A stretch of DNA of 64,000 nucleotides, taken from positions 682,001-746,000 of the forward strand of contig NZ_CP132335.1 in assembly GCF_030758295.1 (NCBI RefSeq), written 5' to 3'. Within the stretch, counting starts at the first letter, position 1, and each line of letters opens with the position of its first letter. The notes beneath the pieces were generated by a model. It had not been told where the DNA came from. It did not search any database and was given only the letters and a program-made list of their open reading frames with translations. The position numbers and the translations under genes are program-made. Shown here piece by piece: positions 50,371 through 63,834 of this stretch. This DNA comes from Pararhizobium sp. IMCC21322 (GTDB lineage Bacteria; Pseudomonadota; Alphaproteobacteria; Rhizobiales; GCA-2746425).

Positions 50371-50395
50371 AACTTCCCACTCGCGATTCCGTTCC
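50371..50395 (-). promoter_or_regulatory. Near-match EcfG promoter upstream of the AI-2E family transporter
   Basis: On the minus strand GGAAC (50395-50391), 16 bp and AGTT (50374-50371) differ from consensus only in the first base of CGTT. Placement is ideal relative to the GTG at 50340. Confidence 0.45.
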
Positions 50396-50490
50396 CAAGT
50401 TTTCAGCGTTAGAGCGGGTTGCCGTTGGAGTTACTTTTGGAACGCATCTTCATTTCCGGCTCGTCACGACATTTTTGCTGATGATCGAAC

Positions 50491-50515
50491 GGAACCAATT
50501 CCGTGCCCCGCCGTT
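50491..50515 (+). promoter_or_regulatory. Exact EcfG promoter upstream of the 106-aa protein
   Basis: GGAAC at 50491-50495, 16 bp, CGTT at 50512-50515. It lies 22 bp before ATG 50538 and could also drive the phospholipase D gene that follows. Confidence 0.75.
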
Positions 50516-50537
50516 GTGTCAGCGAAGGAGATTTGAA

Positions 50538-50858
50538 ATGGAAACCACATTCGCTGTCATGTTGTTGTTGGGCTGTAGTCACGACTTGTCCCAGTGTGAG
50601 ACGATTGAGGAAGTAGCCTCCAAGTACGTGTCGGTAGACGCGTGCGAACGAGACATCGAGAATAATTTCAGAATGGATTCCGATTATCCAATGCTTATGG
50701 GCCAGTGTCTGGAAGCTCCTGCGGGCGAGACTATCGCCACGGTAGAGATTGACTGGCAGGTTACCGAAGATGGCAATCTTTTGGCGCAACTGGTTAATCC
50801 AAACAGGCAATATGCATCGCTGGATCAGCAATCAGGCGGGACGCCTGCTGGCAACTGA
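50538..50858 (+). CDS. Small cysteine-containing protein of the stress regulon
   Basis: This 106-aa protein is not assigned to a known family. It starts at ATG 50538 with AAGGAG seven bases upstream. The N-terminus is hydrophobic (TTFAVMLLLGCS), and four cysteines are spread over the first 70 residues (LGCSHDLSQC, DACERDIE, MGQCLEA), which suggests disulfide bonds outside the cytoplasm. The C-terminal 35 residues are polar and unstructured-looking. An exact EcfG promoter precedes it. It lies 24 bp from the ATG of the phospholipase D-like gene, so the two may be co-transcribed. Confidence 0.7.
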   Translation: METTFAVMLLLGCSHDLSQCETIEEVASKYVSVDACERDIENNFRMDSDYPMLMGQCLEAPAGETIATVEIDWQVTEDGNLLAQLVNPNRQYASLDQQSGGTPAGN

Positions 50859-50873
50859 ACATTTCATGACTGA

Positions 50874-52691
50874 GTGAGGGAAATGAAGCTGCAGCAAACG
50901 TTCGCAGCTCCCTCATCAGAGACGGATAGTTATTTACGGCTGAACCATACGGATTGTCCGATCCGGGCCGATGCGGGTCGTATGTATGGAACACAGGCTT
51001 GGAATATGGTGATGGACGCAGCCCCTGCCTCCAAAGTGGCAGACATTCTTATTACGGCAGCGGAAGCATATCCAGCTATGGAACGCCTCATTTTGGGGGC
51101 GCATTCCCACATCTGCCTTTCCCTTCATGCTTTGTCCTTTTCAACGCCGGTCAAGAGTAAAGAGGCTCAATCCGCAGGGCTTTGCACCTGGTTGGATCTC
51201 CTGTCCCATGCCGCCCACAGGCATGTGGACATCTATCTCTTGCTAACCGACTTCGATCCGGTCGGCGCTCATGAACTTCACGAAGAAGTCTGGTCCCGGA
51301 CGGATGTGCTGCTGGAGCATTTATCAACACTCCCCCATCCGGTCGCAAAACGGTTTCATCTCCAGGTTTCCTTTCCGGGAGGCCGGGCAGGTTCGATGCT
51401 GCAACACGGTTTCTGGCCGTTTGTCAGACACAAGGCAGCGGATCTCCTGGACGGTAGGGATATTGGTACTCGCTTGCCGCCCGGACTGGCAGTCCTTGCC
51501 GGAAGAAACGGGCGGGTCCGGCTGGCGCCGTCAAAGCCCCTTTATTCGCAATCCTTTCATCAGAAATTTCTGATTGCTGACCACAAGGCGGCCATGATAG
51601 GCGGCCTGGACGTGGATCCGCGACGATTTGATGATCCGGCGCACGACCGAACCGCTGAGGAAACCTGGCATGATGTGGATTTGCACATCGAGGGCCCCGT
51701 CGTATCGGAACTCTTGGCGCATTTTCAATTCAGTTGGTCAACGGCACGGAATTTCGGCTTTTCCTTTTTGCCACACTATCTGGAACAGCATTATCCGGAT
51801 CTCGGCTTTTTGACCGACCCAAACTCTCTTGACTCAGACTCTCTTGACCCAGACTCTCTTGACCCAGGCTCTCTTGATTTAGCCTCTTCCCAGGAAATGG
51901 CGGATACCAGCCAGGCCGGGGCACAGATCAAGCTCGTTACGACGTCGGGACGGAACGCACCTGGACTGTTGAGTTGGGGCGCAGAGTTGCCAGTCACAGA
52001 CCTTGAACAGGCGCATCTGGACATGATCGGCTCTGCGCGACAGCAAATCTATCTGGAATCCCAGTTTCTGCGCTCCAGAACCATTGTGGAGGCTCTGTCG
52101 GAGGCAGGGCGCAAAACGCCATCCCTCAAATTAATTGCCTTGCTGCCAGCGGCTCCTGAAGATGTGGCTTTCGGTGGTGGCACATCCAGTGTTCATCGTT
52201 TTGGTGAGTGGCTTCAGATCAAAGCCCTCGAACGCTTGAAAACTGGGTTTGGAGATCGTTTCGGGGTGTTTTGCCTGACAAATGATGTCCGGCAAACAAA
52301 AGACCAGGACCGGGATTCCCTGTACGGCCATTCGATGGTTTACATCCATTCCAAAGTCATGCTGATCGATGATGCCGTTGGGCTGGTTTCTTCAGCCAAT
52401 CTCAACGGACGATCCATGCGATTTGATTTTGAGGCGGGCGTTCTGATCAATTCTGCCGAGGATGTCGGTTTACTGCGGCGTCGTCTGTGGGCAGCTCATT
52501 TCAGTGCAACACATGATAGCCTGATTCAGGAATTGTCGCTTGATGACGGCCTGTCGTTTTGGCGGCAAAAAGCGGCCGAGCGTGCAGCTTTGGGAGATCA
52601 GGCCAAAGGGGTCGGTGTCGTTCCGTTTCCTGCCCGGAAAACAAGACGGTTTTCGCTGCCAAATCCATTTTTGTCAGAGAATCTCGTCTGA
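50874..52691 (+). CDS. Phospholipase D family protein with two HKD motifs
   Basis: The 605-aa protein contains both catalytic HKD repeats: SFHQKFLIADHKAAMIGG near residue 228 and YIHSKVMLIDDAVGLVSSAN near 490. Phospholipases, cardiolipin synthases and some nucleases share this fold, and the length fits the long phospholipase D-like group. There is no signal peptide. Between the repeats lies a tail of four 15-bp units (51823-51882) encoding SLDPD-type repeats. Start choice is uncertain: GTG 50874 or ATG 50883, with GAGGG unusually close to the latter. It follows the 106-aa gene and probably shares its EcfG promoter, which suggests a role in membrane remodelling under stress. Confidence 0.85.
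   Translation: MREMKLQQTFAAPSSETDSYLRLNHTDCPIRADAGRMYGTQAWNMVMDAAPASKVADILITAAEAYPAMERLILGAHSHICLSLHALSFSTPVKSKEAQSAGLCTWLDLLSHAAHRHVDIYLLLTDFDPVGAHELHEEVWSRTDVLLEHLSTLPHPVAKRFHLQVSFPGGRAGSMLQHGFWPFVRHKAADLLDGRDIGTRLPPGLAVLAGRNGRVRLAPSKPLYSQSFHQKFLIADHKAAMIGGLDVDPRRFDDPAHDRTAEETWHDVDLHIEGPVVSELLAHFQFSWSTARNFGFSFLPHYLEQHYPDLGFLTDPNSLDSDSLDPDSLDPGSLDLASSQEMADTSQAGAQIKLVTTSGRNAPGLLSWGAELPVTDLEQAHLDMIGSARQQIYLESQFLRSRTIVEALSEAGRKTPSLKLIALLPAAPEDVAFGGGTSSVHRFGEWLQIKALERLKTGFGDRFGVFCLTNDVRQTKDQDRDSLYGHSMVYIHSKVMLIDDAVGLVSSANLNGRSMRFDFEAGVLINSAEDVGLLRRRLWAAHFSATHDSLIQELSLDDGLSFWRQKAAERAALGDQAKGVGVVPFPARKTRRFSLPNPFLSENLV
51823..51882 (+). repeat. Four in-frame 15-bp tandem repeats inside the phospholipase D gene
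   Basis: Units ACTCTCTTGACTCAG, then ACTCTCTTGACCCAG twice, then a divergent fourth copy, at 51823-51837, 51838-51852, 51853-51867 and 51868-51882. Each adds five residues (Ser-Leu-Asp-Pro/Ser-Asp/Gly), so copy number can change without a frameshift. Confidence 0.9.
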
Positions 52692-52704
52692 ATCGCTGGC
52701 AAAG

Positions 52705-52729
52705 GGAACCTTTCCCTCAGACGTGCGTT
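52705..52729 (+). promoter_or_regulatory. Exact EcfG promoter upstream of the small membrane protein and dps
   Basis: GGAAC at 52705-52709, 16 bp, CGTT at 52726-52729, beginning 14 bp after the phospholipase D stop and 32 bp before ATG 52762. It should drive the 52762, dps and 53474 genes as one unit ending at the terminator at 53717-53757. Confidence 0.75.
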
Positions 52730-52761
52730 TGACTTGTGCAAAACACTTTCTGCGAGGAACA

Positions 52762-52890
52762 ATGAATAAGAACGAAACAAAACTTCCAGAACAGGACGCA
52801 AAACAGGGCAAAAAAGGGTTCCCAGTATTGTGGGTCCTCGTTTGCGGTTTGGCCCTCGCGGGCATCGCGGCGATATTTTTTGCGTTTTAG
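52762..52890 (+). CDS. 42-aa single-helix membrane protein ahead of dps
   Basis: This short gene encodes a polar, Lys-rich N-terminus (MNKNETKLPEQDAKQGKKG) and one membrane helix (VLWVLVCGLALAGIAAIFF) ending the protein, so it is a tail-anchored-type peptide. The ATG follows GAGGA. A longer frame from 52540 overlaps the phospholipase D gene and is not credible. Placed 33 bp after an exact EcfG promoter and 66 bp before dps, it appears to be the leading gene of the dps unit. I do not recognise a family; single-helix stress peptides of this kind are common and poorly described. Confidence 0.65.
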   Translation: MNKNETKLPEQDAKQGKKGFPVLWVLVCGLALAGIAAIFFAF

Positions 52891-52956
52891 TGTAAACGCG
52901 TCCTGAAGCGCTACAGACCTCCCCCAAAAAAATTCACCAAACAAGAGGAGAAGGCA

Positions 52957-53472
52957 ATGAACGCCTCCACTACAACAATAATGTCGCCCTCCCTGGGCGA
53001 TGAAAACGTCAATACCGGCCTCAACAAAGACGCCAGAGAACAGATTGCAGGTCATTTGTCGGAAATTCTGTCCGACACGTATATGCTGGTGATCAAAACG
53101 CACATCTATCACTGGAATGTGGTCGGCCCCATGTTCCACGCAGTTCACGAAATGACCGAGCAGCAATACGAAGATCTGTTCAAGGCAGCTGACGTGATTG
53201 CGGAACGAATTCGCGCACTCGGTTTCCGCGCGCCGTTATCTGATCACTCCGGACCGTCAGAAACGGTCGTCTCCCGGGCTGCAAAGGCAGAATCCGCACA
53301 TGAGATGGTGCATGATCTGATTGACGGGCACGAAGCTGCTATCCGCAAAATGCGCAAAGCCGCTGAGCTTGCTGAAAAGCACGATGATTTCGTATCACAC
53401 GACATGCTGGTGGGACGTATGACATTCCATGAGCAGGTCGTCTGGATGTTACGTTCTTTGGTTACGGAGTAA
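52957..53472 (+). CDS. dps: DNA-protecting ferritin-like protein Dps
   Basis: The 171-aa protein has the Dps signature THIYHWNVVGPMFHAVHEMT, with the ferroxidase His residues, followed by YEDLFKAADVIAERIRALG, which supplies the Asp and Glu ligands shared between subunits. The N-terminal tail (about 25 residues) is polar. Dps dodecamers bind DNA, store iron and detoxify peroxide in stationary phase. It belongs to a unit with an exact EcfG promoter at 52705, consistent with general-stress control known for dps in alphaproteobacteria. AGAGGAG precedes the ATG. The 61-aa PLD-N-like gene starts one base after its stop. Confidence 0.93.
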   Translation: MNASTTTIMSPSLGDENVNTGLNKDAREQIAGHLSEILSDTYMLVIKTHIYHWNVVGPMFHAVHEMTEQQYEDLFKAADVIAERIRALGFRAPLSDHSGPSETVVSRAAKAESAHEMVHDLIDGHEAAIRKMRKAAELAEKHDDFVSHDMLVGRMTFHEQVVWMLRSLVTE

Positions 53473-53473
53473 A

Positions 53474-53659
53474 ATGATGGGCATCGAAGTTGGTTTTTTT
53501 GGATTGCTGATTCTGATTGCGGACATCTATGCAATCGTAAAGACATTTGAATCCGGCGCATCCACTGGAACCAAGGTGATCTGGATTCTGCTGATCCTGC
53601 TGCTTCCTGTTGTGGGACTGATATTGTGGTTCATATTCGGGCCAGGCCGTAAACGGTAA
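53474..53659 (+). CDS. Small two-helix membrane protein, PLDc_N-type
   Basis: The 61-aa protein has two hydrophobic segments (about residues 4-22 and 30-55) and ends GLILWFIFGPGRKR, the closing block of the PLDc_N (phospholipase D N-terminal membrane) domain family, usually short stand-alone membrane proteins. Tandem ATGs at 53474 and 53477 directly follow the dps stop, so it is co-translated. A strong terminator follows. It probably forms part of the envelope response together with dps and the 42-aa peptide; the function is unknown. Confidence 0.72.
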   Translation: MMGIEVGFFGLLILIADIYAIVKTFESGASTGTKVIWILLILLLPVVGLILWFIFGPGRKR

Positions 53660-53716
53660 ACGGTCAGCTGAGGCCGGTTTAAGCGATCAGCCCAAACAGC
53701 CTCAATCGCACGCATC

Positions 53717-53757
53717 AAAAACCCATTTGCCTATTATTTGGCAAATGGGTTTTTTTT
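53717..53757. terminator. Strong bidirectional rho-independent terminator
   Basis: An 11-bp stem (ACCCATTTGCC with GGCAAATGGGT, 8-nt loop) extended by AAAA/TTTT to 15 bp, followed by a T run on the plus strand. It ends the dps unit and can also serve the convergent Crp/Fnr gene. Confidence 0.9.
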
Positions 53758-53782
53758 CGTATTCAGGCGATCCCGATCAGAT

Positions 53783-54538
53783 TCAGATAAAGGGCCGTTT
53801 GAGGTCCGGCAAGCCATCCCAGCTTGCGATATGTTTCAGCGTATCTATGTCCAGAATCGCGAAACCGGTATCTTTCCAGCTTATGATACCGCGATTCTGC
53901 AATTTTTTGAGCGTCTTGTTGGTGTGGACGAGCGAAAGGCCCAGCGTATCAGCCACATGCTGCTGGGTGAGCGGTGTGATGACATTTGTCTGGTTAAACA
54001 GACCGACCAGGTTGGCGCGCTGGTGCAGGAAGGCAAGCAGGTAGGCAGCACGCTCAAGCGCAGAACGGCGACCGATGCTCAGAAGATGTTCATCCAGCAT
54101 CTGTTCCTCACGTGCACCCAGCCAGGTAATGTCAAAACCCAGTGCTGGCTGTGCCTTGAACAGCTCAAACAGACGGTCCCTTTCAAACACACACAGAACC
54201 ATGTCTGACAGCGCTTCGACGGAATGTGACATCTCATCCAGAAGAGAGCCCTGCAATCCGAGGAAATCACCGGGCAGGGCATAATTCAAAATCTGTCGGC
54301 GACCATCTTCCAGTGTCATATATCTAAAGCCCCAACCGGAAATCACGGTGTAGAGATGGGGGCTGTTGGACCCTTCAACAAAAATGGCAGATCCGGCTTC
54401 CGCCACCAGTTCGCCGCGCTTGAACCCTGAGATGTATGACAGTTCCCCGCCTTCGAAGTCACGGAACGCTTCGCTTGCACATAAAGGACATTCTTCACAG
54501 GGAATGTTCCGGGTCTTTTTAGGCGCGCGTGTGCTCAT
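53783..54538 (-). CDS. Crp/Fnr family regulator with FNR-like cysteines
   Basis: The 251-aa protein has an N-terminal extension with PCEECPLC (Cys14, Cys17, Cys20) and a further Cys116 in VLCVFERD, the same layout as the four [4Fe-4S] ligands of FNR (three N-terminal plus one near residue 120). The cyclic-nucleotide-type beta barrel spans about 30-150, the dimer helix about 155-185, and the HTH is LTQQHVADTLGLSLVHTNKTL near 190-210. It should sense oxygen or NO and bind FNR-box DNA. It is transcribed alone, convergent with the dps unit, in the middle of the stress region. The cluster prediction rests on cysteine spacing only. Confidence 0.87.
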   Translation of the reverse strand: MSTRAPKKTRNIPCEECPLCASEAFRDFEGGELSYISGFKRGELVAEAGSAIFVEGSNSPHLYTVISGWGFRYMTLEDGRRQILNYALPGDFLGLQGSLLDEMSHSVEALSDMVLCVFERDRLFELFKAQPALGFDITWLGAREEQMLDEHLLSIGRRSALERAAYLLAFLHQRANLVGLFNQTNVITPLTQQHVADTLGLSLVHTNKTLKKLQNRGIISWKDTGFAILDIDTLKHIASWDGLPDLKRPFI

Positions 54539-54657: not shown

Positions 54658-55107
54658 ATGTGTTTGACAGAATGCCGTATTTTGGTGGTGGATGACGAGA
54701 GTCTCATAGCCTTTCAAATTGCAGATATTGTCAAGGCAATGGGTGTGGCTGATGTCACACTTTGCAAATCAACTGTTGCGATACAAACTCTCCAGGAGGC
54801 GGAAGGTTCCTTCCAACTGGCGATCGTCGACATTCGCAACGCGCACGCCGTATGTGCAGACGTGCTCCGAGAAATCTCGCGTCAGAGGGTTCCGGTTGTG
54901 CTGACAACCACCGATGATGAAATCGACACCGACCTGCTTACCAATAAAAGCTTGTTGCAAATAGTTGTGAAAAAGCCGTTTGGGAGTCAGGATATCAGCG
55001 ATGCGATTGAAGAAATCGTTTCACAGTCGGATGGCAGAAACAATGGTCAGAATGCCAGACTGGAAAGATCACTGCCGATGACCCCTACGTCAAATCGTGT
55101 CTGCTAA
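54658..55107 (+). CDS. Single-receiver response regulator with tail
   Basis: The 149-aa protein has a receiver domain: RILVVDDESLIAFQIADIVK near residue 6, the phosphoacceptor Asp in LAIVDIRNA near 58, TTT near 83 in place of the usual TS/TA and KKPFGSQDI near 107. The final 25 residues are polar. Start may be ATG 54658 or GTG 54652. It lies between the FNR-type gene and ecfG; its last 18 bp overlap the convergent ecfG 3-prime end. Position in the stress locus suggests a role in phosphate flow to or from PhyR, but no partner kinase is adjacent on the same strand. Confidence 0.8.
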   Translation: MCLTECRILVVDDESLIAFQIADIVKAMGVADVTLCKSTVAIQTLQEAEGSFQLAIVDIRNAHAVCADVLREISRQRVPVVLTTTDDEIDTDLLTNKSLLQIVVKKPFGSQDISDAIEEIVSQSDGRNNGQNARLERSLPMTPTSNRVC

Positions 55108-55650
55108 AGCCGGGCGCGACAGGATATGTGCCGACACATTGTCGGGGCCAAAATCTGTAACATCATCAATGCCGAGTATTTCGGTCAGCTGGCTTCTTGC
55201 TCTGGACACCCGGCTTTTGATGGTGCCGACTGCAACACCGCAAATTTCCGAAGCCTCTTCATAGGAAAGACCTGACGCGCCGACGAGAACAATTGCCTCT
55301 CTTTGGTCTTCGGGCAATGTCGCCAAAGCAGCTTTAAAGTCCTGAAGATCCATCTTGCCATTCTGTTCGGGGTGGGCAGCCATGCGCTCGGTGAGATTGC
55401 CCTCGGCATCTGAAATTTCCCGACCCTTCTTGCGCATCTGGCTGTAGAATTCATTGCGAAGGATTGTGAACAACCAGGCCTTGATGTTGGTCCCCATCTG
55501 AAATGATGATTGTTTATTCCAGGCTTTTACCAAAGTTTCCTGCACCAGATCATCTGCCGAGCTGCTGTTGCCCGAAAGCGAGAGAGCAAAGGCGCGCAGG
55601 TTTGGAATGGCCCCCAATAGAAGGTCCTTGAAATTCGCATCAGCGCTCAT
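55090..55650 (-). CDS. ecfG: General stress ECF sigma factor EcfG
   Basis: The 186-aa sigma factor has region 2 (LVQETLVKAW, FTILRNEFYSQMRKKGRE) and region 4 (LPEDQREAIVLVGASGLSYE, then IKSRVSRARSQL) with the spacing of ECF15 (EcfG) proteins. It directs RNA polymerase to GGAAC-N16/17-CGTT promoters. Its start overlaps the nepR stop by 4 bp (ATGA), the classic nepR-ecfG arrangement. An exact copy of that promoter lies upstream of nepR (55890-55914), giving positive autoregulation. NepR holds it inactive until phosphorylated PhyR binds NepR. Confidence 0.93.
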   Translation of the reverse strand: MSADANFKDLLLGAIPNLRAFALSLSGNSSSADDLVQETLVKAWNKQSSFQMGTNIKAWLFTILRNEFYSQMRKKGREISDAEGNLTERMAAHPEQNGKMDLQDFKAALATLPEDQREAIVLVGASGLSYEEASEICGVAVGTIKSRVSRARSQLTEILGIDDVTDFGPDNVSAHILSRPALADTI

Positions 55651-55835
55651 GAATCACCATCTTCCGGACTTGCTTTTTCGGAAGCTTCCAGAGTCGCCAG
55701 TAATGCGAGAAATTTGTCGGGAACCGGTTCTTTCACAACTTCTTCATAACCATCACGAAGTATCTTCCCGATTTCCGATTGTGCGAGTGGGTCCAGTACA
55801 GGACCGTCTTCACCGTCAGCTTTATCTCCACTCAT
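55647..55835 (-). CDS. nepR: Anti-sigma factor NepR
   Basis: The 62-aa protein carries the NepR core EIGKILRDGYEEVVKEPVPDKFLALLATLE, here split for length (two helices joined by a Pro-containing turn), flanked by acidic disordered tails. NepR binds EcfG under non-stress conditions and is sequestered by phosphorylated PhyR. It is encoded directly before ecfG with a 4-bp overlap and divergent from phyR. An exact EcfG promoter lies 55 bp upstream of its start. Confidence 0.93.
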   Translation of the reverse strand: MSGDKADGEDGPVLDPLAQSEIGKILRDGYEEVVKEPVPDKFLALLATLEASEKASPEDGDS

Positions 55836-55889: not shown

Positions 55890-55914
55890 AACGCAGAGAT
55901 TGAAAAAAAGTTCC
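55890..55914 (-). promoter_or_regulatory. Exact EcfG promoter of nepR-ecfG
   Basis: On the minus strand GGAAC (55914-55910), 16 bp, CGTT (55893-55890). It provides autoregulation of the stress sigma operon. Confidence 0.85.
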
Positions 55915-55923
55915 AGAAAAAGT

Positions 55924-55948
55924 GGAACAAAAGTGCCGCCCACACATT
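55924..55948 (+). promoter_or_regulatory. Near-match EcfG promoter of phyR
   Basis: GGAAC at 55924-55928, 16 bp, CATT at 55945-55948, one mismatch from CGTT. It lies 48 bp before the phyR ATG and only 9 bp from the divergent nepR promoter. Confidence 0.55.
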
Positions 55949-55996: not shown

Positions 55997-56794
55997 ATGT
56001 CGCTCGCTGCCGAAATTACCCCTCATATTCCTTATCTGAGACGCTTCGCCCGGGCACTGACTGGCGCGCAGTCGAGTGGCGACGCATATGTTGCTGCCGT
56101 CCTGGAGGCTCTGGTGTCAGATGCAGGAAGTTTCCCTAAGGAACTCGGTGCCAAGGTCGGCCTTTACAAATCTTTCATCACCATCTGGAAGTCGATTGAT
56201 TTGAATTTGAAGTCTGATCCCATACTTTCCGAGCTCAGCCCGCCATCGACAAAGAAACTCCAGGCCATTACCCCGGCAGCGCGGCAGGCGTTTCTTTTGA
56301 CAACAGTGGAAGATTTTTCGCACGCTGAAGCAGCTGCGGTTCTCGACGTAGCGCAGAACGAGCTTGAAGCACTGCTTGATCAGGCAAATCGTGAGATAGC
56401 CGCACAAGTGGCCACGAGCGTCATGATTATCGAAGATGAGCCCATCATCGCCATGGACATCGAATCGATGGTTGAGGATCTGGGCCATTCTGTCACCGGC
56501 ATTGCGCGGACCCACAAGGAAGCTATTGCCCTGTTCAAATCAGATCAACCAGGTATCGTTCTGGCTGACATTCAACTGGCCGATGGCAGTTCTGGACTGG
56601 AAGCAGTGAATGAATTGCTTGAGGATTTCGAAGTTCCAGTGATCTTTATCACCGCCTTCCCGGAACGACTGCTGACCGGCCAGCGACCGGAGCCTGCATT
56701 CCTTGTGACCAAACCATTTCAACCCGACATGGTCCGAGCATTGATCAGCCAGGCACTGTTTTTCAGTGAGCGGGATACTAGTAAGGCTGCTTAG
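55997..56794 (+). CDS. phyR: Anti-anti-sigma response regulator PhyR
   Basis: The 265-aa protein has an N-terminal sigma-like domain (about 1-125: EITPHIPYLRRFARALTGAQ, DVAQNELEALLDQA) that mimics EcfG. The C-terminal receiver domain (about 140-260) has VMIIEDEPIIAMDIESMV, the phosphoacceptor Asp in GIVLADIQLADG near 194, FITAFPERLL and the Lys of VTKPF. When phosphorylated it opens and captures NepR, freeing EcfG. The ATG at 55997 is chosen over frames starting at 55922 because it begins the known N-terminus MSLAAEI. It is divergent from nepR-ecfG. Confidence 0.95.
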   Translation: MSLAAEITPHIPYLRRFARALTGAQSSGDAYVAAVLEALVSDAGSFPKELGAKVGLYKSFITIWKSIDLNLKSDPILSELSPPSTKKLQAITPAARQAFLLTTVEDFSHAEAAAVLDVAQNELEALLDQANREIAAQVATSVMIIEDEPIIAMDIESMVEDLGHSVTGIARTHKEAIALFKSDQPGIVLADIQLADGSSGLEAVNELLEDFEVPVIFITAFPERLLTGQRPEPAFLVTKPFQPDMVRALISQALFFSERDTSKAA

Positions 56795-56964: not shown

Positions 56965-56990
56965 GGAACCATTTGGTGCCTTGCTGCGTT
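56965..56990 (+). promoter_or_regulatory. Exact EcfG promoter upstream of the DUF1328 gene
   Basis: GGAAC at 56965-56969, 17 bp, CGTT at 56987-56990. It lies 29 bp before ATG 57020. Confidence 0.75.
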
Positions 56991-57019: not shown

Positions 57020-57184
57020 ATGCTGCGTTGGGCCTTAATATTTCTGGTTGTTGCGCTGATCGCCGGAGTGCTTGGTTTCGGTGGCATTGCTGGTGCGTCC
57101 GTCGGTATCGCAAAAATTCTGTTTTACGTTTTCCTCGTTCTTTTGCTGGTTAGCGTTGCGCTGCATTTTGCCCGCCGTGCTTAA
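57020..57184 (+). CDS. DUF1328 (YtjA) family small membrane protein
   Basis: The 54-aa protein reads [20 protein letters not shown] at its start, then a glycine-rich turn ([12 protein letters not shown]) and a second helix ending LHFARRA. This is the DUF1328/YtjA family of two-helix inner-membrane proteins, often stress-induced and of unknown function. AAGGAG lies six bases before the ATG. An exact EcfG promoter lies 29 bp upstream and a GC-rich hairpin follows (57193-57216), so it is a one-gene transcript of the stress regulon, next to phyR. Confidence 0.85.
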
Positions 57185-57237: not shown

Positions 57238-58206
57238 ATGAGCTCTGAAAAAAACCATAATGACCTTATCGCCGAATCCATCCTGGGTACGCCGATCACG
57301 GTTTTCATGCAGGATGCGGACGGCATAACTGCATGGGTTTCGAACCCCCAATCCGGTTGGACCGAAGATTCATTTGTCGGCAAGCGAAACGACGAAATTT
57401 TCGACGAGAAGACAGCAGCTGCATTTGACGCGTCCAAATTGCTCGCCAATGAGAGCGGAGATGACCAGACGATCACGATAGAAGTGCACGCCGATGGCCG
57501 CGCGCGTTGGTTCAAAATTGTCATCAAACCGGTCAGGCAGGATTGTGGTCGCGCCCACTATCTATGTTCCTCTATCGAGATTACGAATGAGCGAGAGCGC
57601 GAAGAAACGCTCCGCGCTCTACTCATGGAAGTCAGCCATCGATCAAAGAACATGCTGTCGGTTGTGCTTAGCATTGCGGCTCAAACAGCCAAGAGTGCCA
57701 AGACGCCAGATCTTTTTCTGCGCAGGTTTACAGGGCGCGTGCAGTCTCTAGCCAAATCGCAGGATGTGATCGTCAACAGTAAATGGGTTGGCGCCACCTT
57801 AGAAGATCTCGTCAACAGACAGGTATCAAGATTTGGCCCCGACGTCAGCGCTCAGATAGTGCTGGAAGGTGAAAATTTGAAATTCAGCCCGAATGGGGCG
57901 ACTCATATTGGGCTGGCGTTACATGAGCTCTACACCAACTCCCTTACATTTGGTGCGCTATCCATACCGGATGGAAAGGTCGCTATTAAATGCAAGAAAA
58001 CAATAGTCGACGGCGCCGCCAGCGGCGAGTTGACCTGGGAGGAAAAACCGCGCGTTCGTCGTGATAAGGCCCCGGCGCAGTCATTCGGTCGAACAGCCCT
58101 TGAAAAAATCGTTCCGTCCGCCGTTAACGGCAAGGGCAAACTGTCTGTTGATCCTGACGGTGTACGCTACTGGCTGAAAATCGGCAGTTCCGAACTGATA
58201 GACTAG
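57238..58206 (+). CDS. PAS-domain HWE/HisKA_2-type histidine kinase (PhyK-like candidate)
   Basis: The 322-aa soluble kinase has a PAS domain (about 15-120: SILGTPITVFMQDADGITAW, MQDADG, RWFKIVIKPVRQ) and a kinase core with the phosphoacceptor in LLMEVSHRSKNMLSVV near 136. The N box is LHELYTNSLTFGALS near 230, and the ATP region lies near PAQSFGRTALEKI. The N box has Thr-Asn-Ser in place of the common Thr-Asn-Ala. It is the kinase closest to phyR (about 440 bp away), so it is a good candidate to phosphorylate PhyR; this is inference. Start is ATG 57238 with no clear Shine-Dalgarno, so expression may be low. Confidence 0.85.
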   Translation: MSSEKNHNDLIAESILGTPITVFMQDADGITAWVSNPQSGWTEDSFVGKRNDEIFDEKTAAAFDASKLLANESGDDQTITIEVHADGRARWFKIVIKPVRQDCGRAHYLCSSIEITNEREREETLRALLMEVSHRSKNMLSVVLSIAAQTAKSAKTPDLFLRRFTGRVQSLAKSQDVIVNSKWVGATLEDLVNRQVSRFGPDVSAQIVLEGENLKFSPNGATHIGLALHELYTNSLTFGALSIPDGKVAIKCKKTIVDGAASGELTWEEKPRVRRDKAPAQSFGRTALEKIVPSAVNGKGKLSVDPDGVRYWLKIGSSELID

Positions 58207-58738: not shown

Positions 58739-58936
58739 TTAGTTCTTGTCCAGCCAGTTGTCGATTTCCTGCTCGGCTTCTTCTTTGGTTTTGCCATACT
58801 GAGCCTGGATTTTTCCGGCCAGTGCTTCACGATTGCCGTCGACTTCCGCAAGTTCATCGTCTGTGAGCTTGCCCCACTGAGCTTTCGCTTTGCCGGTAAA
58901 CTCAGTCCATTTGCCTTCGATTTGGTCCCAGTTCAT
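58739..58936 (-). CDS. CsbD family stress protein
   Basis: The 65-aa highly charged protein matches CsbD: MNWDQIEGKWTEFTGKAKAQ, then WGKLTDDELAEVDGNREALAG and a final helix with YGKTKEEAEQEIDNWL. It is a soluble three-helix protein, abundant under general stress in many bacteria, function unknown. AAGGAG-like GGAGA precedes the ATG. It has its own exact EcfG promoter (58972-58996) and terminator, so it is a one-gene stress transcript. Confidence 0.95.
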   Translation of the reverse strand: MNWDQIEGKWTEFTGKAKAQWGKLTDDELAEVDGNREALAGKIQAQYGKTKEEAEQEIDNWLDKN

Positions 58937-58971: not shown

Positions 58972-58996
58972 AACGAGCGACCCTTCAATAGGTTCC
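58972..58996 (-). promoter_or_regulatory. Exact EcfG promoter of the csbD gene
   Basis: On the minus strand GGAAC (58996-58992), 16 bp, CGTT (58975-58972), 36 bp before the start codon at 58936. Confidence 0.82.
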
Positions 58997-59028
58997 ATCT
59001 TTTTCAAATTTTTTCGGAAAAACTGATC

Positions 59029-60054
59029 TCAATCGGCTTTTGCCTGAAACACATGATCCGCCACGTAAGCGCCGCGTTCGCCAGGCGGCGAATCGGGTCC
59101 TATCGTTGTGTCCGGATAGGTCTGCAATTCCAGCTCCGCATTCAAAATTGCCCCGGCGACAAAAACCATCGAGGAGAAGTAGAGCCACAACATCAATATT
59201 GCAGCCGTGGCAATGGATCCGAATGTCGCCCCGTAATTCGCAAAATTCTCTATGTAGAAGGAAAACGCAATGGACCCGCCTAACCACAAAAGCGAAGCTG
59301 TTATGGCACCTGGCAGCACCCAGCGGAATTTCGGATCTCGGCGATGCGGTGCCGCTTTGTAAAGATAGGCGATTGCAAACAGAACGATCAGCGCGACAAC
59401 CGGCCAGCGTAGCCAGAGCGCCATTGTTTCCCCCTCGATCGGCAGCGGCAAAAGGGTCGTGACTGCCGGCAGAACTGCCACCGCGCCCAGAACAAGGATG
59501 CCGACCAGAAAGGCCGCAATCGTCAGACCGATGGATATAAGGGCGGCCAGAATAAAGGGCCGTTCATCCTCTTCCCGATAGGCCTTGGTCATGGCATGGA
59601 CAAGCGCATTTATGCCGCGTGATCCACTCCATAACGCAAGCACCAGACTGATGATCAGGCCGAGGGTCAGCGTTTCATCGCTCTCGGAAATGATCGCTTC
59701 CAGCCGCTCGGTAAACAGCTGTGTCACGCTGGAAGGCAGAAACTGGTCCGCAAGATACATCTGCTGGTTCAGTGTCTGAATGTCGGCGAACAGTCCATAG
59801 AGCGCGACACCCACGGCGACCGCAGGAAACAAAGACAGAAAACTGAAAAACGCAACCCCCGCGCACCGCAGAGAGACATCAGTCTCCGAAATACGAACCA
59901 TCGCCCGCTTCAAGGCCGTCCATACGCTGGAGAAGGAGAATGTGAAAGGCGACTTCGCCACACTCGCCCTGGCTCGGATTTCATCGGCAGTACCGGCATC
60001 TGTTTCCAGAAACTCAACGCTTACGATGCCCGGGCTTTGTTTGGCATTGTCCAT
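59029..60054 (-). CDS. YihY/BrkB family inner-membrane protein
   Basis: The 341-aa protein has six hydrophobic segments and family blocks SLRCAGVAFFSFLSLFPAVA near residue 60, LWSGSRGINALVHAMTKAY near 140 and the C-terminal FGSIATAAILMLWLYFSSMV near 275. YihY proteins were once called RNase BN by error; they are membrane proteins of unknown transport or envelope function. Its stop lies 33 bp upstream of the csbD promoter, in the same direction. No EcfG promoter was found in front of it, although it sits between two genes that have one. Confidence 0.85.
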   Translation of the reverse strand: MDNAKQSPGIVSVEFLETDAGTADEIRARASVAKSPFTFSFSSVWTALKRAMVRISETDVSLRCAGVAFFSFLSLFPAVAVGVALYGLFADIQTLNQQMYLADQFLPSSVTQLFTERLEAIISESDETLTLGLIISLVLALWSGSRGINALVHAMTKAYREEDERPFILAALISIGLTIAAFLVGILVLGAVAVLPAVTTLLPLPIEGETMALWLRWPVVALIVLFAIAYLYKAAPHRRDPKFRWVLPGAITASLLWLGGSIAFSFYIENFANYGATFGSIATAAILMLWLYFSSMVFVAGAILNAELELQTYPDTTIGPDSPPGERGAYVADHVFQAKAD

Positions 60055-60143
60055 AAAGCTAACTTTTTTGGGGGTTTGGAATCACCTGCCCATCAATACA
60101 CCATCAGGACCGGAGCAGGCAGGTGATATTTTGTCGCTTCTGA

Positions 60144-60317
60144 TCAGCCTTCCGGCAGGTCGACCTTAATATTGATATCGTTGGATGATGCGCCAAAAAT
60201 TGCGTCACGGAAAACGTAGCCGCCAACCAACAGCAGACAAATTGCAATAACGGCAATCACCCAGCCGGCACTCCCGCCAGAATTGACGACTTTTACCTTA
60301 GGATCTGGATCCGACAT
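60144..60317 (-). CDS. 57-aa single-helix membrane protein of the stress regulon
   Basis: The gene encodes a short cytoplasmic head (MSDPDPKVKVVNSGGSAG), one membrane helix (WVIAVIAICLLLVGGYVF) and a 20-residue outer tail with DINIKVDLPEG. AGGAAAA lies before the ATG at 60317. A frame extending to 60425 runs through the promoter and is rejected. An exact EcfG promoter is found at 60410-60434, giving a leader of about 85 nt. It resembles small hydrophobic alphaproteobacterial proteins but no named family is claimed. Confidence 0.72.
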   Translation of the reverse strand: MSDPDPKVKVVNSGGSAGWVIAVIAICLLLVGGYVFRDAIFGASSNDINIKVDLPEG

Positions 60318-60409
60318 AATATTTTCCTTTTGATGTTTCCGTTGACCGTAATCTATCGAGGCCAAGCGTGTTGTGGCGGTTCCTGTACGGGTTCGCCGTG
60401 TCAGTCTGC

Positions 60410-60434
60410 AACGTGCATACTGCAAAAAGGTTCC
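60410..60434 (-). promoter_or_regulatory. Exact EcfG promoter upstream of the 57-aa membrane protein
   Basis: On the minus strand GGAAC (60434-60430), 16 bp, CGTT (60413-60410). The core is exact; the distance to the start codon (93 bp) is longer than for the other sites. Confidence 0.7.
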
Positions 60435-60462
60435 AGAATCGAGGGACTATAGTTCCCGACTT

Positions 60463-60951
60463 TTATTGGGTTGGTTGAACTTCGGCGTTAAACAGCGGAA
60501 CCGTCGATATGGACATTTTCGCCGATCCGTCCTGAACCTGGCGGGAATGCGACAAATAAATCAATGTGTTGTTGGTCTCATCATAGACCCGTTTGACAAT
60601 CAACTTTTTCCAGATCAACGAGCGGCGGCTCTTGAATATCTCTTCGCCGTCCTTGTCCATGTCGATGTCGCCCACGCGAATTGGGCCGGTCTGGCTGCAG
60701 GCAATGGATGAGTTTGAAGGATCTTCGAACCAATTTCCCTTTTGAAGCCGGTCGATCAGGCCACGCTCAAAATAGGCAACATGGCAGGTAACACCTTCAA
60801 CATCCGGATCCTGCACAGCTTCAATGATGATATCATTGCCAAGCCAATCCACGCCGATCTCTCCGACCTCTTCAGCCTGCCCTGGTGTCAGGACGGTAGC
60901 ATAAAGGGCAAAGGCAGCGGCCGCGATCAGGCGTTTGTAATTTCGTATCAT
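60463..60951 (-). CDS. creA: CreA family periplasmic protein
   Basis: The 162-aa protein has a signal peptide (about residues 1-26, ending GQAEE) and the CreA pattern GEIGVDWLGNDIIIEAVQDP, VEGVTCHVAYFERGL, NSSIACSQTGPI, then SLIWKKLIVKRVYDETNNTL. Two cysteines could form a disulfide. CreA is widespread in proteobacteria and of unknown function despite its name from the E. coli cre locus. ATG 60951 is preferred to GTG 60981. It is the last gene of the minus-strand stress-membrane operon, 30 bp after the DUF4112 gene. Confidence 0.88.
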   Translation of the reverse strand: MIRNYKRLIAAAAFALYATVLTPGQAEEVGEIGVDWLGNDIIIEAVQDPDVEGVTCHVAYFERGLIDRLQKGNWFEDPSNSSIACSQTGPIRVGDIDMDKDGEEIFKSRRSLIWKKLIVKRVYDETNNTLIYLSHSRQVQDGSAKMSISTVPLFNAEVQPTQ

Positions 60952-60981
60952 GACTTTGATATCCTGTCTGATTTGGCCCAC

Positions 60982-61404
60982 TCAATTCTTGGTTGAGCGA
61001 TTTTCCAGGTGACGCAGTTCCTGCTTAAGCAGCTGAACGTTTTTTACATTGGATTTATAGGCAAAATCGAACAAATCACCAACCAGAGGTATTATGCCGA
61101 TGACCATATCTATTGCTGAGTTGGATGCCATGCGCACAAGTGTCCGTTTGCGCGCGCCCTTACGATGTGCATCGAAGATGATCAGAGCTGAAAGCCCCGC
61201 CGTCAGCGTATCGCCAATTCCCGGGATCAGACCGATCAATCCGTCGAGCCCGATGCGCACACCGGTGCCTGGGATCGCGAATTTTGAATCAAGCCAGCTT
61301 TCCAGTTGATCCAGTTGTTGCGGACTGAACAGGCCAGTCTCGACCTTTTGCGGCAAAGTGCTTGCGTTTGGGTTTTCGGGTTTTGCTTCAACAACAGGGT
61401 TCAT
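60982..61404 (-). CDS. DUF4112 family protein
   Basis: The 140-aa protein has the DUF4112 core: a helical start (LDQLESWLDSKFAIPGTG), the Gly-rich hydrophobic GLDGLIGLIPGIGDTLTAGL near residue 53, and a second GIIPLVGDLFDFAYKSNVKN near 105. The two Pro-Gly-x-Gly-Asp turns sit between hydrophobic helices, so it probably inserts in the membrane. The family has no known function and is common in alphaproteobacteria and algae. It lies between the YqaE and creA genes of the same operon, with gaps of 15 and 30 bp. Confidence 0.88.
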   Translation of the reverse strand: MNPVVEAKPENPNASTLPQKVETGLFSPQQLDQLESWLDSKFAIPGTGVRIGLDGLIGLIPGIGDTLTAGLSALIIFDAHRKGARKRTLVRMASNSAIDMVIGIIPLVGDLFDFAYKSNVKNVQLLKQELRHLENRSTKN

Positions 61405-61419
61405 GTGCCTGTTTCCGCT

Positions 61420-61578
61420 CTAGCGCCGGGCAATGATCCAGACCGCGTGGACGACACCTGGAATGTAACCCAGAAGCGTGAGAAGAATATTCAGCCAGAA
61501 CTGCGCACCAATGCCAACCTGGAGAAAGACGCCCAGTGGCGGCAACAATACGGACAAGATGATTCTGATAAGATCCAT
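61420..61578 (-). CDS. YqaE/Pmp3 family small membrane protein
   Basis: This 52-aa two-helix protein reads MDLIRIILSVLLPPLGVFLQ, then GIGAQFWLNILLTLLGYIPG, and ends HAVWIIARR, the complete Pmp3 signature. Members in yeast and plants counter membrane hyperpolarisation and salt stress; bacterial ones are induced by osmotic stress. GGGGT precedes the ATG. A 6-bp hairpin (61599-61624) separates it from the 24-aa gene, so part of the transcription may stop there. It belongs to the stress-membrane operon. Confidence 0.92.
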   Translation of the reverse strand: MDLIRIILSVLLPPLGVFLQVGIGAQFWLNILLTLLGYIPGVVHAVWIIARR

Positions 61579-61598
61579 GATTTTACCCCTTGAAGAGA

Positions 61599-61624
61599 GC
61601 CCGGCGCCAATTGCGACACCGGGC
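61599..61624 (-). promoter_or_regulatory. Intercistronic hairpin before the YqaE gene
   Basis: GCCCGG and CCGGGC form a 6-bp stem with a 14-nt loop between the 24-aa and YqaE genes. Without a U run it is more likely a stabiliser or weak attenuator than a terminator. Confidence 0.4.
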
Positions 61625-61657
61625 GATATTTAGTCAGCTTAAGTCTCGTACCAGCCC

Positions 61658-61732
61658 TCAGGCCAACCCGAGAAATGAAAGGAGTGCCAGTACAACGACG
61701 ACCACGCCTATAATGTAAAAAATGCTATGCAT
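61658..61732 (-). CDS. 24-aa hydrophobic peptide in the stress-membrane operon
   Basis: A 25-codon frame (including the stop) begins MHSIFYIIGVV and is a single valine- and leucine-rich membrane helix ending FLGLA. It is preceded by AAGGAGCG eight bases before the ATG, one of the best ribosome-binding sites in the operon. It lies 14 bp after the DUF3618 gene and 79 bp before YqaE. Size and hydrophobicity are those of single-helix small proteins that modulate membrane complexes. No family is claimed, but context and the ribosome-binding site make translation likely. Confidence 0.65.
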   Translation of the reverse strand: MHSIFYIIGVVVVVLALLSFLGLA

Positions 61733-61746
61733 GTCGTGTTCGCTCC

Positions 61747-62838
61747 TTAAGATTTTGAAATAGAGCCGGACCGGGACATTGTGTCTGCTCCCGTGCTCGG
61801 CGCTTTGCTTTCAGCATTCTTGCGAGACTCTGACGTCTTGCCTGCTGGTGTCGTCTTGCCGGTTTGGGTCGTCTTGCTTGAAGCCGATGGCTTGCGATTT
61901 GCCGGCTTGCGGGTGGCCGCATTAGATGCCTGACCTGATTTCGTCTTTGCTTTCGGCTTGGAAACCACTGGCGAGGACGGCTTGTAGGCAGGCATTGTTC
62001 GATCCGCCTGTGTCCGCAGGTCCGATGTTGACCCTTTGGGAAAATCATCAGGCGCCGGGATGTGGTGTGGCGTTACATCTGACTGCGGCAGCGGCTCGGA
62101 TTGTGCCGACGAGGTCTGTTTCTTGGCCGTCAACACGGTTGCTGCAGCTGCCCCGAGGGCCAGTGCCATCAGGCCCAGCGGAACTGGGTTTTCCTTTGCC
62201 CATTCCACAGCCTTTGAAGATGTGTCGCGCATCTGGTCAGGCACATCTCCCGCACGGCGTTTGAATGTCTCGCCGGTCGCGGACACACTGCCGCCGATGT
62301 GGCGCGCCTGTTCCCGGAGTTGGGAGGAGCCGCTTTCAACACTGTTTTTTGCATCGGCATAGACCCGTTTTGCTTCATCCGCCACATGATCCACCTTGTC
62401 ACCGACCGCCGCTTTCGCGCTCTCCAGCTTTTCGCTCGCCGTGGCTTTCAGCCGTTGTGCTTCGGATTTCAAATCCTCAACATGAGAGGCCACGCGCTCT
62501 GCCGGATGCGATGATGTTGCCGCGAAACTTGCGGGTGTCTGGTAGCCATTGGCATGCGGTGTTGTCGGGGCCACATCGCCAGATACGTTCGTTCGGGATT
62601 TCTGGCTGGCCAGCAGACCCACCAAGCCGGCACCAATCAGCGCTGCGGGTATCGGGTGCTGCTTCACCGTGTCGAACGCGGCATCCAACAGCTCTCCGGG
62701 ACTGTTGCCCTTGGCGCCCAGAGTGCGGGAGGCGAGGGAGGACAGATTCAGATCTTCCGAGATATTTTCCACTCTCGCGCTCATACGATCCTGAATACGC
62801 TTGATGTTGTTTTCAATGTCTTGTGTGTTCTGTCCCAT
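61747..62838 (-). CDS. DUF3618 family protein with long disordered tail
   Basis: The 363-aa protein begins with the DUF3618 region (DIENNIKRIQDRMSARVENI) and a short hydrophobic segment near 65-80 (HPIPAALIGAGLVGLLAS). A helical Ala/Lys-rich stretch resembling LEA-type repeats (about 115-200) follows, then a second hydrophobic segment near 225-243 and a Ser/Thr/Lys-rich tail. DUF3618 proteins accompany phage-holin-like DUF1469 proteins in alphaproteobacteria, as here: its ATG overlaps the upstream stop by one base (TAATG). It is probably membrane-tethered and stress-induced. The function is unknown. Confidence 0.87.
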   Translation of the reverse strand: MGQNTQDIENNIKRIQDRMSARVENISEDLNLSSLASRTLGAKGNSPGELLDAAFDTVKQHPIPAALIGAGLVGLLASQKSRTNVSGDVAPTTPHANGYQTPASFAATSSHPAERVASHVEDLKSEAQRLKATASEKLESAKAAVGDKVDHVADEAKRVYADAKNSVESGSSQLREQARHIGGSVSATGETFKRRAGDVPDQMRDTSSKAVEWAKENPVPLGLMALALGAAAATVLTAKKQTSSAQSEPLPQSDVTPHHIPAPDDFPKGSTSDLRTQADRTMPAYKPSSPVVSKPKAKTKSGQASNAATRKPANRKPSASSKTTQTGKTTPAGKTSESRKNAESKAPSTGADTMSRSGSISKS

Positions 62839-63218
62839 TATGCTGCATCCTTTATTGTCTCAGCGCTGTCGCGCATGGAATTGAGTGTCCGCTCGGGCAC
62901 CAGATTCTTGGCTTTGAGCTGCTCCGTGCCAGCTTTGACAGATATGTAGGCCAGGACCGCCAGTACGACGCCGACCAAAAGCGCAGCCAGAGAGGGGGCC
63001 ATGATGTTGGAAAGGGCGACGACCAGAGCCTGAAGCAGGATCAGAAGAGCGCAGAACGCCAGCAGCAATCCTGATACAATGCCAATCATGCCGATTTGGA
63101 CCTGTTCTATTTTCTCGCCGACTTCGGCGCGCGCCAGGCGTGCCTCTTGCTGAGCCAGCAATGCTGCATCGCTGACCAGTGATTTGACGGTATCGATGAT
63201 ATTTGGACTATTTGTCAT
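62838..63218 (-). CDS. Phage-holin-superfamily (DUF1469) membrane protein
   Basis: The 126-aa protein has an amphipathic N-terminus (LVSDAALLAQQEARLARAEV) and two adjacent membrane helices (about 40-65 and 70-95: GIVSGLLLAFCALLILLQAL, SLAALLVGVVLAVLAYISV). This is the DUF1469 (holin superfamily III) pattern, a chromosomal family that is not a phage lysis gene here. It is coupled by a 1-bp overlap to the DUF3618 gene. A 111-bp gap separates it from the upstream 148-aa gene, with no promoter recognised, so it is probably in that operon. Confidence 0.85.
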   Translation of the reverse strand: MTNSPNIIDTVKSLVSDAALLAQQEARLARAEVGEKIEQVQIGMIGIVSGLLLAFCALLILLQALVVALSNIMAPSLAALLVGVVLAVLAYISVKAGTEQLKAKNLVPERTLNSMRDSAETIKDAA

Positions 63219-63329
63219 ATTCTTACCCCGGTTTTAGTGGATGCCATGCGCGTGTGTCGGCTGCCAGGCTGCACCATTTGCATGGTTGCTATCCGGCAGA
63301 CTGCGCGCTTGGCTTTTATTGTCTGGTAT

Positions 63330-63776
63330 TTATTTCCCAGAGCGTGTGTTGACGAAGCTTGCCAGTGCGAAGCCAGCAACGGCCAGTATACCGGCTGCAG
63401 CCAAAGGCTTGTCGCGCACAAAATGTTCCACGCGCGCGGTGACGTTCTTGGGATTGAAGCCATCCACCTCGTCGGCAGCGCTACTGATACCGCGTGCCGC
63501 TGCACGGGCATATCCAGCTGTACCGAGCATGCCGTCGCGTTCCAAACTGGCACCGCCGGCATCAATTGCGCGTCCGATGGACTGCACCACCTGATTGATC
63601 TGGGATTGACCTTTCAAAGCCACCTCATCCGCCTTCAAGCGGGCCGCATCAATCGCTTCGGATGTGGCTTGCTCGGTTTTGTCCACAAGCTGCTCCGCCG
63701 CTTCAGCCGCAGTCTCCTTGGCCTTCTGGGCAGGGCTCTGTTTGCTGTTCTGCGTCTCAGTGTGCTGAATGCTCAC
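63330..63776 (-). CDS. Stress-induced helical protein with C-terminal anchor
   Basis: The start is GTG 63776, five bases after AGGAGA; the frame continues to 63908 but that part has no start or conservation. The 148-aa product is Ala-, Glu- and Lys-rich and almost entirely helical (KAKETAAEAAEQLVDKTEQA), ending with VRDKPLAAAGILAVAGFALA, a C-terminal membrane helix like those of ElaB/YqjD-type ribosome- and membrane-associated stress proteins. Rhizobial relatives are annotated as nutrient-deprivation-induced. It heads the stress-membrane operon (63776 down to 60463), and a near-match EcfG promoter lies upstream (63810-63834). Confidence 0.75.
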   Translation of the reverse strand: MSIQHTETQNSKQSPAQKAKETAAEAAEQLVDKTEQATSEAIDAARLKADEVALKGQSQINQVVQSIGRAIDAGGASLERDGMLGTAGYARAAARGISSAADEVDGFNPKNVTARVEHFVRDKPLAAAGILAVAGFALASFVNTRSGK

Positions 63777-63809
63777 GATTTCTCTCCTGCGGTTATTTGT
63801 TGCACTTAC

Positions 63810-63834
63810 AACAGCCAGGTCAGCAATTGGTTCC
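63810..63834 (-). promoter_or_regulatory. Near-match EcfG promoter of the stress-membrane operon
   Basis: On the minus strand GGAAC (63834-63830), 16 bp, TGTT (63813-63810), one mismatch from CGTT. It lies 34 bp before the GTG at 63776. Confidence 0.5.

Follow-up and report, generated by a model that had tools for sequence, protein, structure and literature searches.

A general stress response regulon within an insertion zone at a tRNA-Arg gene of Pararhizobium sp. IMCC21322 and its probable horizontal acquisition

Free-living alphaproteobacteria are commonly regarded as carrying the general stress response (GSR) as a core trait of the chromosome. The excerpt of the R. etli study drawn on here describes a nepR-ecfG1/phyR locus with the promoter motif GGAAC-N16-CGTT and places all genes of the EcfG1 subgroup on the chromosome, tied to the core genome (PMC3892343). 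Here we analyze a 64,000-nt stretch (the window; genome positions 682001-746000) of Pararhizobium sp. IMCC21322, a member of the Rhizobiales as inferred from the nearest named ecfG loci among the matches listed, whose genome (called G000) is a single contig of 5,252,332 bp. The right part of the window and the sequence beyond it (genome 729.4-760.05 kb, the GSR unit) carry the complete set of known alphaproteobacterial GSR core parts along with over 20 additional genes, some of which lie behind EcfG-type promoters. We estimate a probability of roughly 0.65 for an account, drawn from sequence comparison, in which this unit was acquired horizontally within a series of elements stacked at a tRNA-Arg(CCG) gene (712.3-857.3 kb), the lineage having lost its GSR and then received it back as a single island from a donor of the same genus.

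The locus shares with the canonical Rhizobiales GSR locus its core genes, divergent layout, promoter motif, adjacent kinase and local clustering of promoters (Table 1). In the excerpted source the canonical locus is chromosomal and belongs to the core genome (PMC3892343), whereas the block of G000 lies in a tRNA-anchored zone that is absent from G002, one of the five genomes of the genus sample (G000 to G004). G002 is the nearest sampled relative, with 93-99% identity, above G001 and G003 in all 14 comparisons (13 proteins of 2003-2023 kb and RpoB); the RpoB tree by itself leaves the branching order inside the genus unsettled (support 60-62). The core consists of EcfG with regions 2 and 4, NepR, PhyR with sigma-like and receiver parts, and three HWE_HK kinases nearby, of which HWE histidine kinase 2 is, from its position, a possible PhyR kinase. 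Following the known biology of these families in kinase signalling and partner switching, stress would act through an HWE kinase to phosphorylate PhyR, which would sequester NepR and leave EcfG free, so that the island promoters would fire together. Three modules are contiguous in G000: module A (AI-2E to HWE2) holds the ecfG-nepR-phyR core, module B comprises csbD through the DUF883-like gene, and module C g746891/YkuD through PAP2.

An earlier, sequence-only reading had proposed five exact GGAAC-N16/17-CGTT promoters before genes other than the sigma operon, at 50491(+), 52705(+), 56965(+, N17), 58972(-) and 60410(-), an exact one before nepR-ecfG at 55890(-), and three single-mismatch sites at 50371(-), 55924(+) and 63810(-). 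All of these are present, and the enrichment over the genome average that it predicted is found as well, since its interval (50371-63834) holds 6 exact sites where 0.185 are expected (Poisson P 4.8e-8). The whole window contains 7 N16 sites where 0.52 are expected, and 0 of 100 shuffles reach 7; its 2 N17 sites, with 0.51 expected, are matched by 6 shuffles and are not significant by themselves. An excess of the motif over the whole genome was ruled out, with 78 exact sites in 5,252,332 bp compared to 154 for the reversed-pattern control. The cluster is broader than first proposed and extends past the right end of the window (746.0 kb). In the interval 729424-760049 (30.6 kb, 0.58% of the genome), which was chosen post hoc with the sites already known, 13 of the 78 exact sites are found compared to 0.38 expected (P 4e-16). 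Eight of these 13 lie between genes and are followed within 200 nt by a same-strand start (distances of 22-92 nt), compared to 5.2% of 15,000 random positions. The site at 730146 (window 48146) lies inside an HWE kinase gene, that at 758788 extends over the 3' part of PAP2 at its very end, with DUF1206 59 nt further on, and for those at 748938, 757780 and 759636 no downstream start was clearly called. Outside the cluster 10 of 65 exact sites are well placed compared to 5.2% by chance (P 0.002), and a modest scattered regulon therefore remains there. Single-mismatch sites taken alone are weak; 13 entries at 12 places were found in 47-64 kb, and 9 of these places are intragenic.

How unusual is such clustering around ecfG? 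For comparison we took the best 80 of a longer list of named Rhizobiales ecfG loci and counted the 67 that were full-length, omitting 13 shorter ones; these 67 are not independent, because many come from near kin (Mesorhizobium, Rhizobium). They average 4.88 exact sites per ~20 kb compared to 0.30-0.51 for six control patterns, 66 have at least one exact site within ~10 kb of ecfG, and 16 reach the 7 or more seen in the window. The statement that the GSR regulon is normally scattered is thus wrong at short range. The density of sites falls to about the control level by 7-8 kb from ecfG, and in 11 relatives read to 30 kb it remains slightly higher than in the controls, at 0.03-0.055 sites per kb beyond 10 kb (controls, 0-0.03). 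On the 30-kb scale G000 is the highest of 13 genomes compared (13 sites; next 11, 10 and 9), with 124 kb searched in G000 and 60-80 kb in the others. Spacings of 16 (270 sites) and 17 (57 sites) stand far above the other 20 spacings over the 67 loci (2-25 each). A stricter pattern, GGAACNWWW-N12/13-CGTT, counted in 25 genomes, occurs 18 times in G000, 14 in G001, 15 in G003, 8 in G002 and 6 in G004, and among distant GSR-bearing genomes 0 times in G017, 2 in G021, 3 in G005 and 4 each in G009, G014 and G023. Its counts were rejected as a marker of the GSR, as genomes with and without the response do not separate clearly; the same pattern revealed a second cluster in G003.

The positions of the promoters were compared in the 67 loci by looking for a tblastn match near ecfG with an exact or one-mismatch site at most 250 nt upstream. 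Such a site precedes DUF1328 in 32 of 32 loci with a match (31 exact, 1 one-mismatch), CsbD in 8 of 8 (7 exact, 1 one-mismatch), AI-2E in 4 of 4 (all exact), PhyR in 64 of 67 (57 exact, 7 one-mismatch), NepR in 23 of the 27 in which NepR was found, orf106 in 9 of 11 (5 exact, 4 one-mismatch), Crp in 13 of 22, orf42 in 3 of 5 and Dps in 1 of 3. Among the kinases the numbers are 31/63 (HWE2), 14/50 (HWE1) and 17/63 (HWE3), and among the receiver proteins 7/49 (RR_a), 0/10 (RR_b) and 8/65 (RR_c). EcfG itself has an upstream site in only 12 of 67 loci, as would be expected from the position of nepR between the promoter and ecfG. Apart from csbD, module B gave one match near ecfG in the 67 loci (Pmp3, one locus). 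Within the genus, the site before the DUF883-like and holin genes is likewise a one-mismatch site in G003, and the orf57 promoter is present in G001; none was found at the orf57 match of G003. The csbD gene of G001, though remote from ecfG, is still preceded by an exact promoter at a distance of 36 nt, while the sole csbD homologue found in G002 (71% identity) is without an EcfG-type promoter, in a genome where NepR, PhyR and a close EcfG were not found. Together they provide a partial natural control. The G002 homologue may not be the direct counterpart of G000 csbD, because its identity is lower than that of G001 (89%) although G002 is the nearer relative.

What is notable about the locus is its genomic setting and not the local clustering of promoters. 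Two stretches of G000, 634503-715303 and 857219-929999, are collinear with contig C19 of G002 (14-93846 and 96864-186244; 78-93% DNA identity, in pieces), and the ~142 kb between them (715303-857219) faces a near-empty site of ~3 kb. The right edge lies in the tRNA-Arg(CCG) gene, where an intact gene (857006-857082) is followed by a displaced part (857229-857268) that matches the tRNA of G002. Remnants of the tRNA end are found in the same orientation at 712329, 777829 and 791377, matching in 27-34 of 38 bases compared to a maximum of 23-24 for 6 shuffled probes; a weaker remnant at 767762 (23/38) is backed only by similar flanking sequence. The region thus has a near-empty site in a close relative and a zone edge in a tRNA gene with a repeated tRNA end, as tRNA-integrated islands do. 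The earlier description of the locus as close to a self-contained stress island is upheld by this insertion zone and the near-empty site; the contrast with a normally scattered regulon, on which it also drew, fails at short range. A Rhizobiales ecfG neighbourhood of the ordinary kind, inherited vertically and having the usual local regulon plus a few extra promoters, would agree with the local clustering being the norm (mean 4.88 exact sites, 16/67 loci reaching 7), but the near-empty site in G002, the tRNA-Arg remnants and the losses from older sites described below make it highly improbable.

A trb-type integrative and conjugative element (ICE) occupies 791.4-857.0 kb. Its integrase adjoins the 791377 remnant, it encodes a coupling protein and members of the TrbE, TrbL and TrbI families, and plasmid records annotate DNA matching it as trb genes; a DUF3363 protein is what we take to be its relaxase. 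The right end of the ICE holds a 9.1-kb module that recurs, as pieces with 78-85% identity, at 760.2-767.8 kb. The copies lie at 760239-767766 and 847910-857010, the second ending at the tRNA, and by sequence appearance their genes are GST-, TetR- and SRPBCC-like. Type I restriction-modification genes hsdM and hsdR (770148-777011) adjoin the 777829 remnant. On the left, the 14-kb module at 33439-47424 of the window has sharp edges on both sides and 88% identity to a different place in G001, and is perhaps another mobile piece. A simple insertion junction relative to G001 was ruled out for this flank: neither side of the 14-kb match continues in 160 kb of G001, and the region is therefore a mosaic.

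The arrangement shares with trb-type ICEs and tandem tRNA islands the integrase next to a tRNA-end repeat, the coupling protein, the trb genes and accretion at one tRNA. Unlike in these, the GSR unit lies outside the ICE proper, without called transfer genes, and the cargo is a stress regulon. A cis-mobilizable element (CIME) is an ICE remnant mobilized in cis. The GSR unit resembles one in adjoining an ICE that uses the same tRNA and in having a short tRNA-end match at its right edge (760049); it differs in that no left attachment remnant was found, so that at most one of its flanks is marked. Elsewhere, a search for integrases in the 80 named loci, 12 ecfG regions and 3 module regions gave one match (28%, G016), and among 12 stretches beside the GSR modules of G001 and G003 (including one G002 stretch) the only tRNA was a tRNA-Leu. 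No report of a GSR on a genomic island or ICE was found among the titles and abstract openings listed from the open-licence literature.

Accessory replicons do offer parallels. Among 72,556 plasmid records, 34 contain a PhyR-like match (E up to 1e-30), including some replicons of 2-4.6 Mb and 11 from Azospirillum (33-35% identity). Four Rhodobacterales plasmids, pDSHI02 (153 kb), pRLO149_94 (94 kb), p2 of Gemmobacter fulvus (311 kb) and that of Rhodobacteraceae strain S2214 (78 kb), all carry nepR-ecfG-kinase divergent from phyR, with a varying toolkit of Dps, DUF1328, PLDc_N, PLD, AI-2E, CsbD, Crp, BrkB and holin genes, of which the stretch of pRLO149_94 read has only BrkB. Joint carriage of the GSR on accessory replicons is thus paralleled in four plasmid stretches, which hold 7 (pDSHI02), 2 (pRLO149_94), 10 (Gemmobacter fulvus p2) and 0 (S2214) exact promoters. 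These plasmids differ from the present case in being typed as non-mobilizable and not being a chromosomal tRNA island, and their PhyR identity is 49-51%. No close DNA match of window 47425-64000 was found on plasmids. The S2214 plasmid (CP081165.1) has a GSR toolkit without an exact GGAAC-N16/17-CGTT in 30.8 kb; GGAAC boxes precede several of its genes, and by eye the -10 element looks shifted or different. A spacing of 21/22 on this plasmid was dropped, as no single spacing exceeded 3 sites once all were listed.

The distribution of the modules among the congeners suggests how the unit may have arisen. In G003, A and B are joined and C lies 1.6 Mb off; 8 exact sites, at 7 places, fall within or next to this C. 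The three are separate in G001, where A is found at 32 kb, B at 4.60 Mb and C at 1.51 Mb, the last two having 2 exact sites each. Searches of G002 and G004 found no NepR, no PhyR, no Dps and no close EcfG (best in G002, 41%), and the GSR core is thus found in 3 of the 5 sampled genomes. Module C has the same neighbour genes in G001 and G003, and at that site G000 has 1.8 kb of other genes. At the module B site of G001, only orf57-BrkB is left in G000 (641715-643079), a relic common to G002. In trees, the island EcfG and PhyR group with G003 (support 100), and the island BrkB and orf57 fall outside the clade of the G000 relic, G002 and G001 (support 74). The EcfG and PhyR core of G001 (C1:31155-32452) groups with other families (support 100), though the housekeeping genes of G001 are close to those of G000, and this placement points to a likely separate exchange of the core, the second within the genus. 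Genes lacking a match in both G001 and G003, together with the labels RR_a, HWE1, HWE3 and Cph, were excluded from the module identity means; the low-identity matches of AI-2E, HWE2 and RR_c in G001 (29-34%) are probably not true counterparts.

We propose that the common ancestor of G000 and G002 lost the native GSR modules and that the G000 lineage would then have received all three back together from a donor of the same genus, with an ICE that uses the same tRNA as the possible vehicle; with sigma factor, regulators and targets kept together, one transfer could restore the response. The promoters with their enrichment and conserved positions, the near-empty site, the tRNA remnants, the ICE and the old-site losses of C and most of B are the observations, read from the DNA itself, on which this proposal is built. 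The same losses, and the joining of A and B in G003 too, could also reflect an intragenomic gathering, in which the native modules A, B and C would have been brought together inside this genome and none of them imported. We regard this as improbable, since the island BrkB and orf57 stand apart from the relic copies of G000 and G002 (albeit with low support for the wider split) and the block sits among integrated elements.

The main rival to acquisition is a deletion in G002: the GSR block would be ancestral at the tRNA zone, ~142 kb would have been lost in at least one event, and the cluster would predate the split and not be a recent import. Islands stacked in tandem at a tRNA are easily lost, the 712329 remnant is common to G002 (at 88054), and the decay of module B common to G000 and G002 is expected if an island copy had made the native one redundant. 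Such a deletion still presupposes that the modules had come to the tRNA zone at some earlier time, since B and C stand elsewhere in G001 and are mostly lacking there in G000; NepR and PhyR are missing from G004 too; and it alters the date and not the island. Overall, we consider it unlikely, though clearly less so than an intragenomic gathering.

Several observations count against recent acquisition of the unit. A single deletion in G002 would look no different, and the 712329 remnant is older and present in G002 as well. The GSR unit is not flanked on both edges by attachment repeats: the remnant at its right edge, just past module C (760049), is short, matching each real tRNA end in 15 of 16 bases, reaches over the whole probe only 23/38, which is within chance, and was equalled somewhere in 308 kb by 1 of 20 permuted probe pairs, and neither the left edge (729424) nor 715.3 kb yielded a tRNA remnant. 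Among the gene calls of the unit, made with a simple codon-usage gene caller and with Pfam run on most though not all genes, there is no integrase or transfer gene, and its G+C (0.52-0.54) is similar to that of the flanks. EcfG and PhyR are 79-80% identical to those of G003, near the housekeeping mean of 82.7%, and block A by itself is therefore no proof of import. Of the comparable genes, 6 of 8 in B and 5 of 6 in C are nearer to G001 than to G003, unlike in A. The placement of BrkB is poorly supported (74; 78 in the tree of BrkB only, which includes one very distant sequence). The old-site reads cover the B site in G000 and G002 and the C site in G000, and sampling of the genus is thin, at only five genomes.

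Table 1. Features of the GSR unit and its left flank (positions in the window)
Feature	Position	Strand	Family or remark
Left edge of DNA absent here in G002	33303..33439		collinearity stops at genome 715303
14-kb module, 88% DNA identity to G001 3278495-3292448	33439..47424		sharp end at GSR-unit start
RR_a, single-domain response regulator	47641..48003	-	Response_reg
PAS-HWE histidine kinase 1	47987..49093	-	HWE_HK
AI-2E family transporter (start codon uncertain)	49228..50340	-	PF01594
One-mismatch EcfG-type site before AI-2E gene	50371..50395	-	
Exact EcfG-type promoter of orf106-PLD	50491..50515	+	
orf106, 106 aa	50538..50858	+	no Pfam or NCBIfam family
Phospholipase D-like protein	50883..52691	+	PLDc
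Exact EcfG-type promoter of orf42-dps-PLDc_N	52705..52729	+	
orf42, small membrane-like protein	52762..52890	+	no family
Dps (ferritin-like)	52957..53472	+	PF00210
PLDc_N small membrane protein	53474..53659	+	
Crp/Fnr regulator	53783..54538	-	
RR_b, receiver-domain protein	54658..55107	+	
EcfG sigma factor	55090..55650	-	Sigma70_r2, Sigma70_r4_2
NepR anti-sigma factor	55647..55835	-	PF18557
Exact EcfG-type promoter of nepR-ecfG	55890..55914	-	
One-mismatch EcfG-type promoter of phyR	55924..55948	+	
PhyR anti-anti-sigma response regulator	55997..56794	+	PhyR_sigma2, PhyR_sigma-like, Response_reg
Exact EcfG-type promoter (N17) of DUF1328-HWE2	56965..56990	+	
DUF1328 protein	57020..57184	+	
HWE histidine kinase 2	57238..58206	+	HWE_HK
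CsbD, first gene of module B	58739..58936	-	
Exact EcfG-type promoter of csbD	58972..58996	-	
BrkB/YihY-like membrane protein	59029..60054	-	second copy at genome 642099-643079
orf57, small membrane protein	60144..60317	-	no family
Exact EcfG-type promoter of orf57	60410..60434	-	
CreA	60463..60951	-	
DUF4112	60982..61404	-	
Pmp3	61420..61578	-	
363-aa protein	61747..62838	-	no Pfam family
Phage_holin_3_6 family protein	62838..63218	-	
DUF883-like protein	63330..63776	-	weak, under Pfam cut-off
One-mismatch EcfG-type site before DUF883-like/holin genes	63810..63834	-	

Module C of G000 also contains a cyanophycin synthetase, a cyanophycinase and the third HWE kinase. The first two are NCBIfam equivalogs inside the GSR unit (749658-752219 and 752640-753473), and the synthetase has only partial matches in the four congeners, the best-scoring at 24-30% identity. 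The protein orf106 is without a known domain and stands repeatedly behind EcfG-type sites. A short open reading frame at 749184-749330 matches a 111-aa gene of G003 (45%), which itself has a weak match to orf106 and its own exact site, and may be a truncated relative. The gene at 61747..62838 of the window has no Pfam family and may be a DUF3618 protein, and that at genome 755040-755882, for which NCBIfam gave no family, may be a PRC protein.

One member of the genus thus has its whole GSR in a zone absent from its nearest sampled relative, and the core of another groups phylogenetically with other families. It is tempting, though tentative, to regard the GSR as portable, such that a genus may lose all of it and regain the switch and its effector regulon in one transfer, here on a tRNA-Arg island mobilized by a neighbouring ICE. 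If this is true, repeated joint transfer would be at least one of the selective forces behind the clustering of EcfG targets across Rhizobiales. The genus offers a natural experiment of matched relatives with and without the GSR, and the locus a case in which the evolution of a global stress regulon as a transferable unit can be tested.

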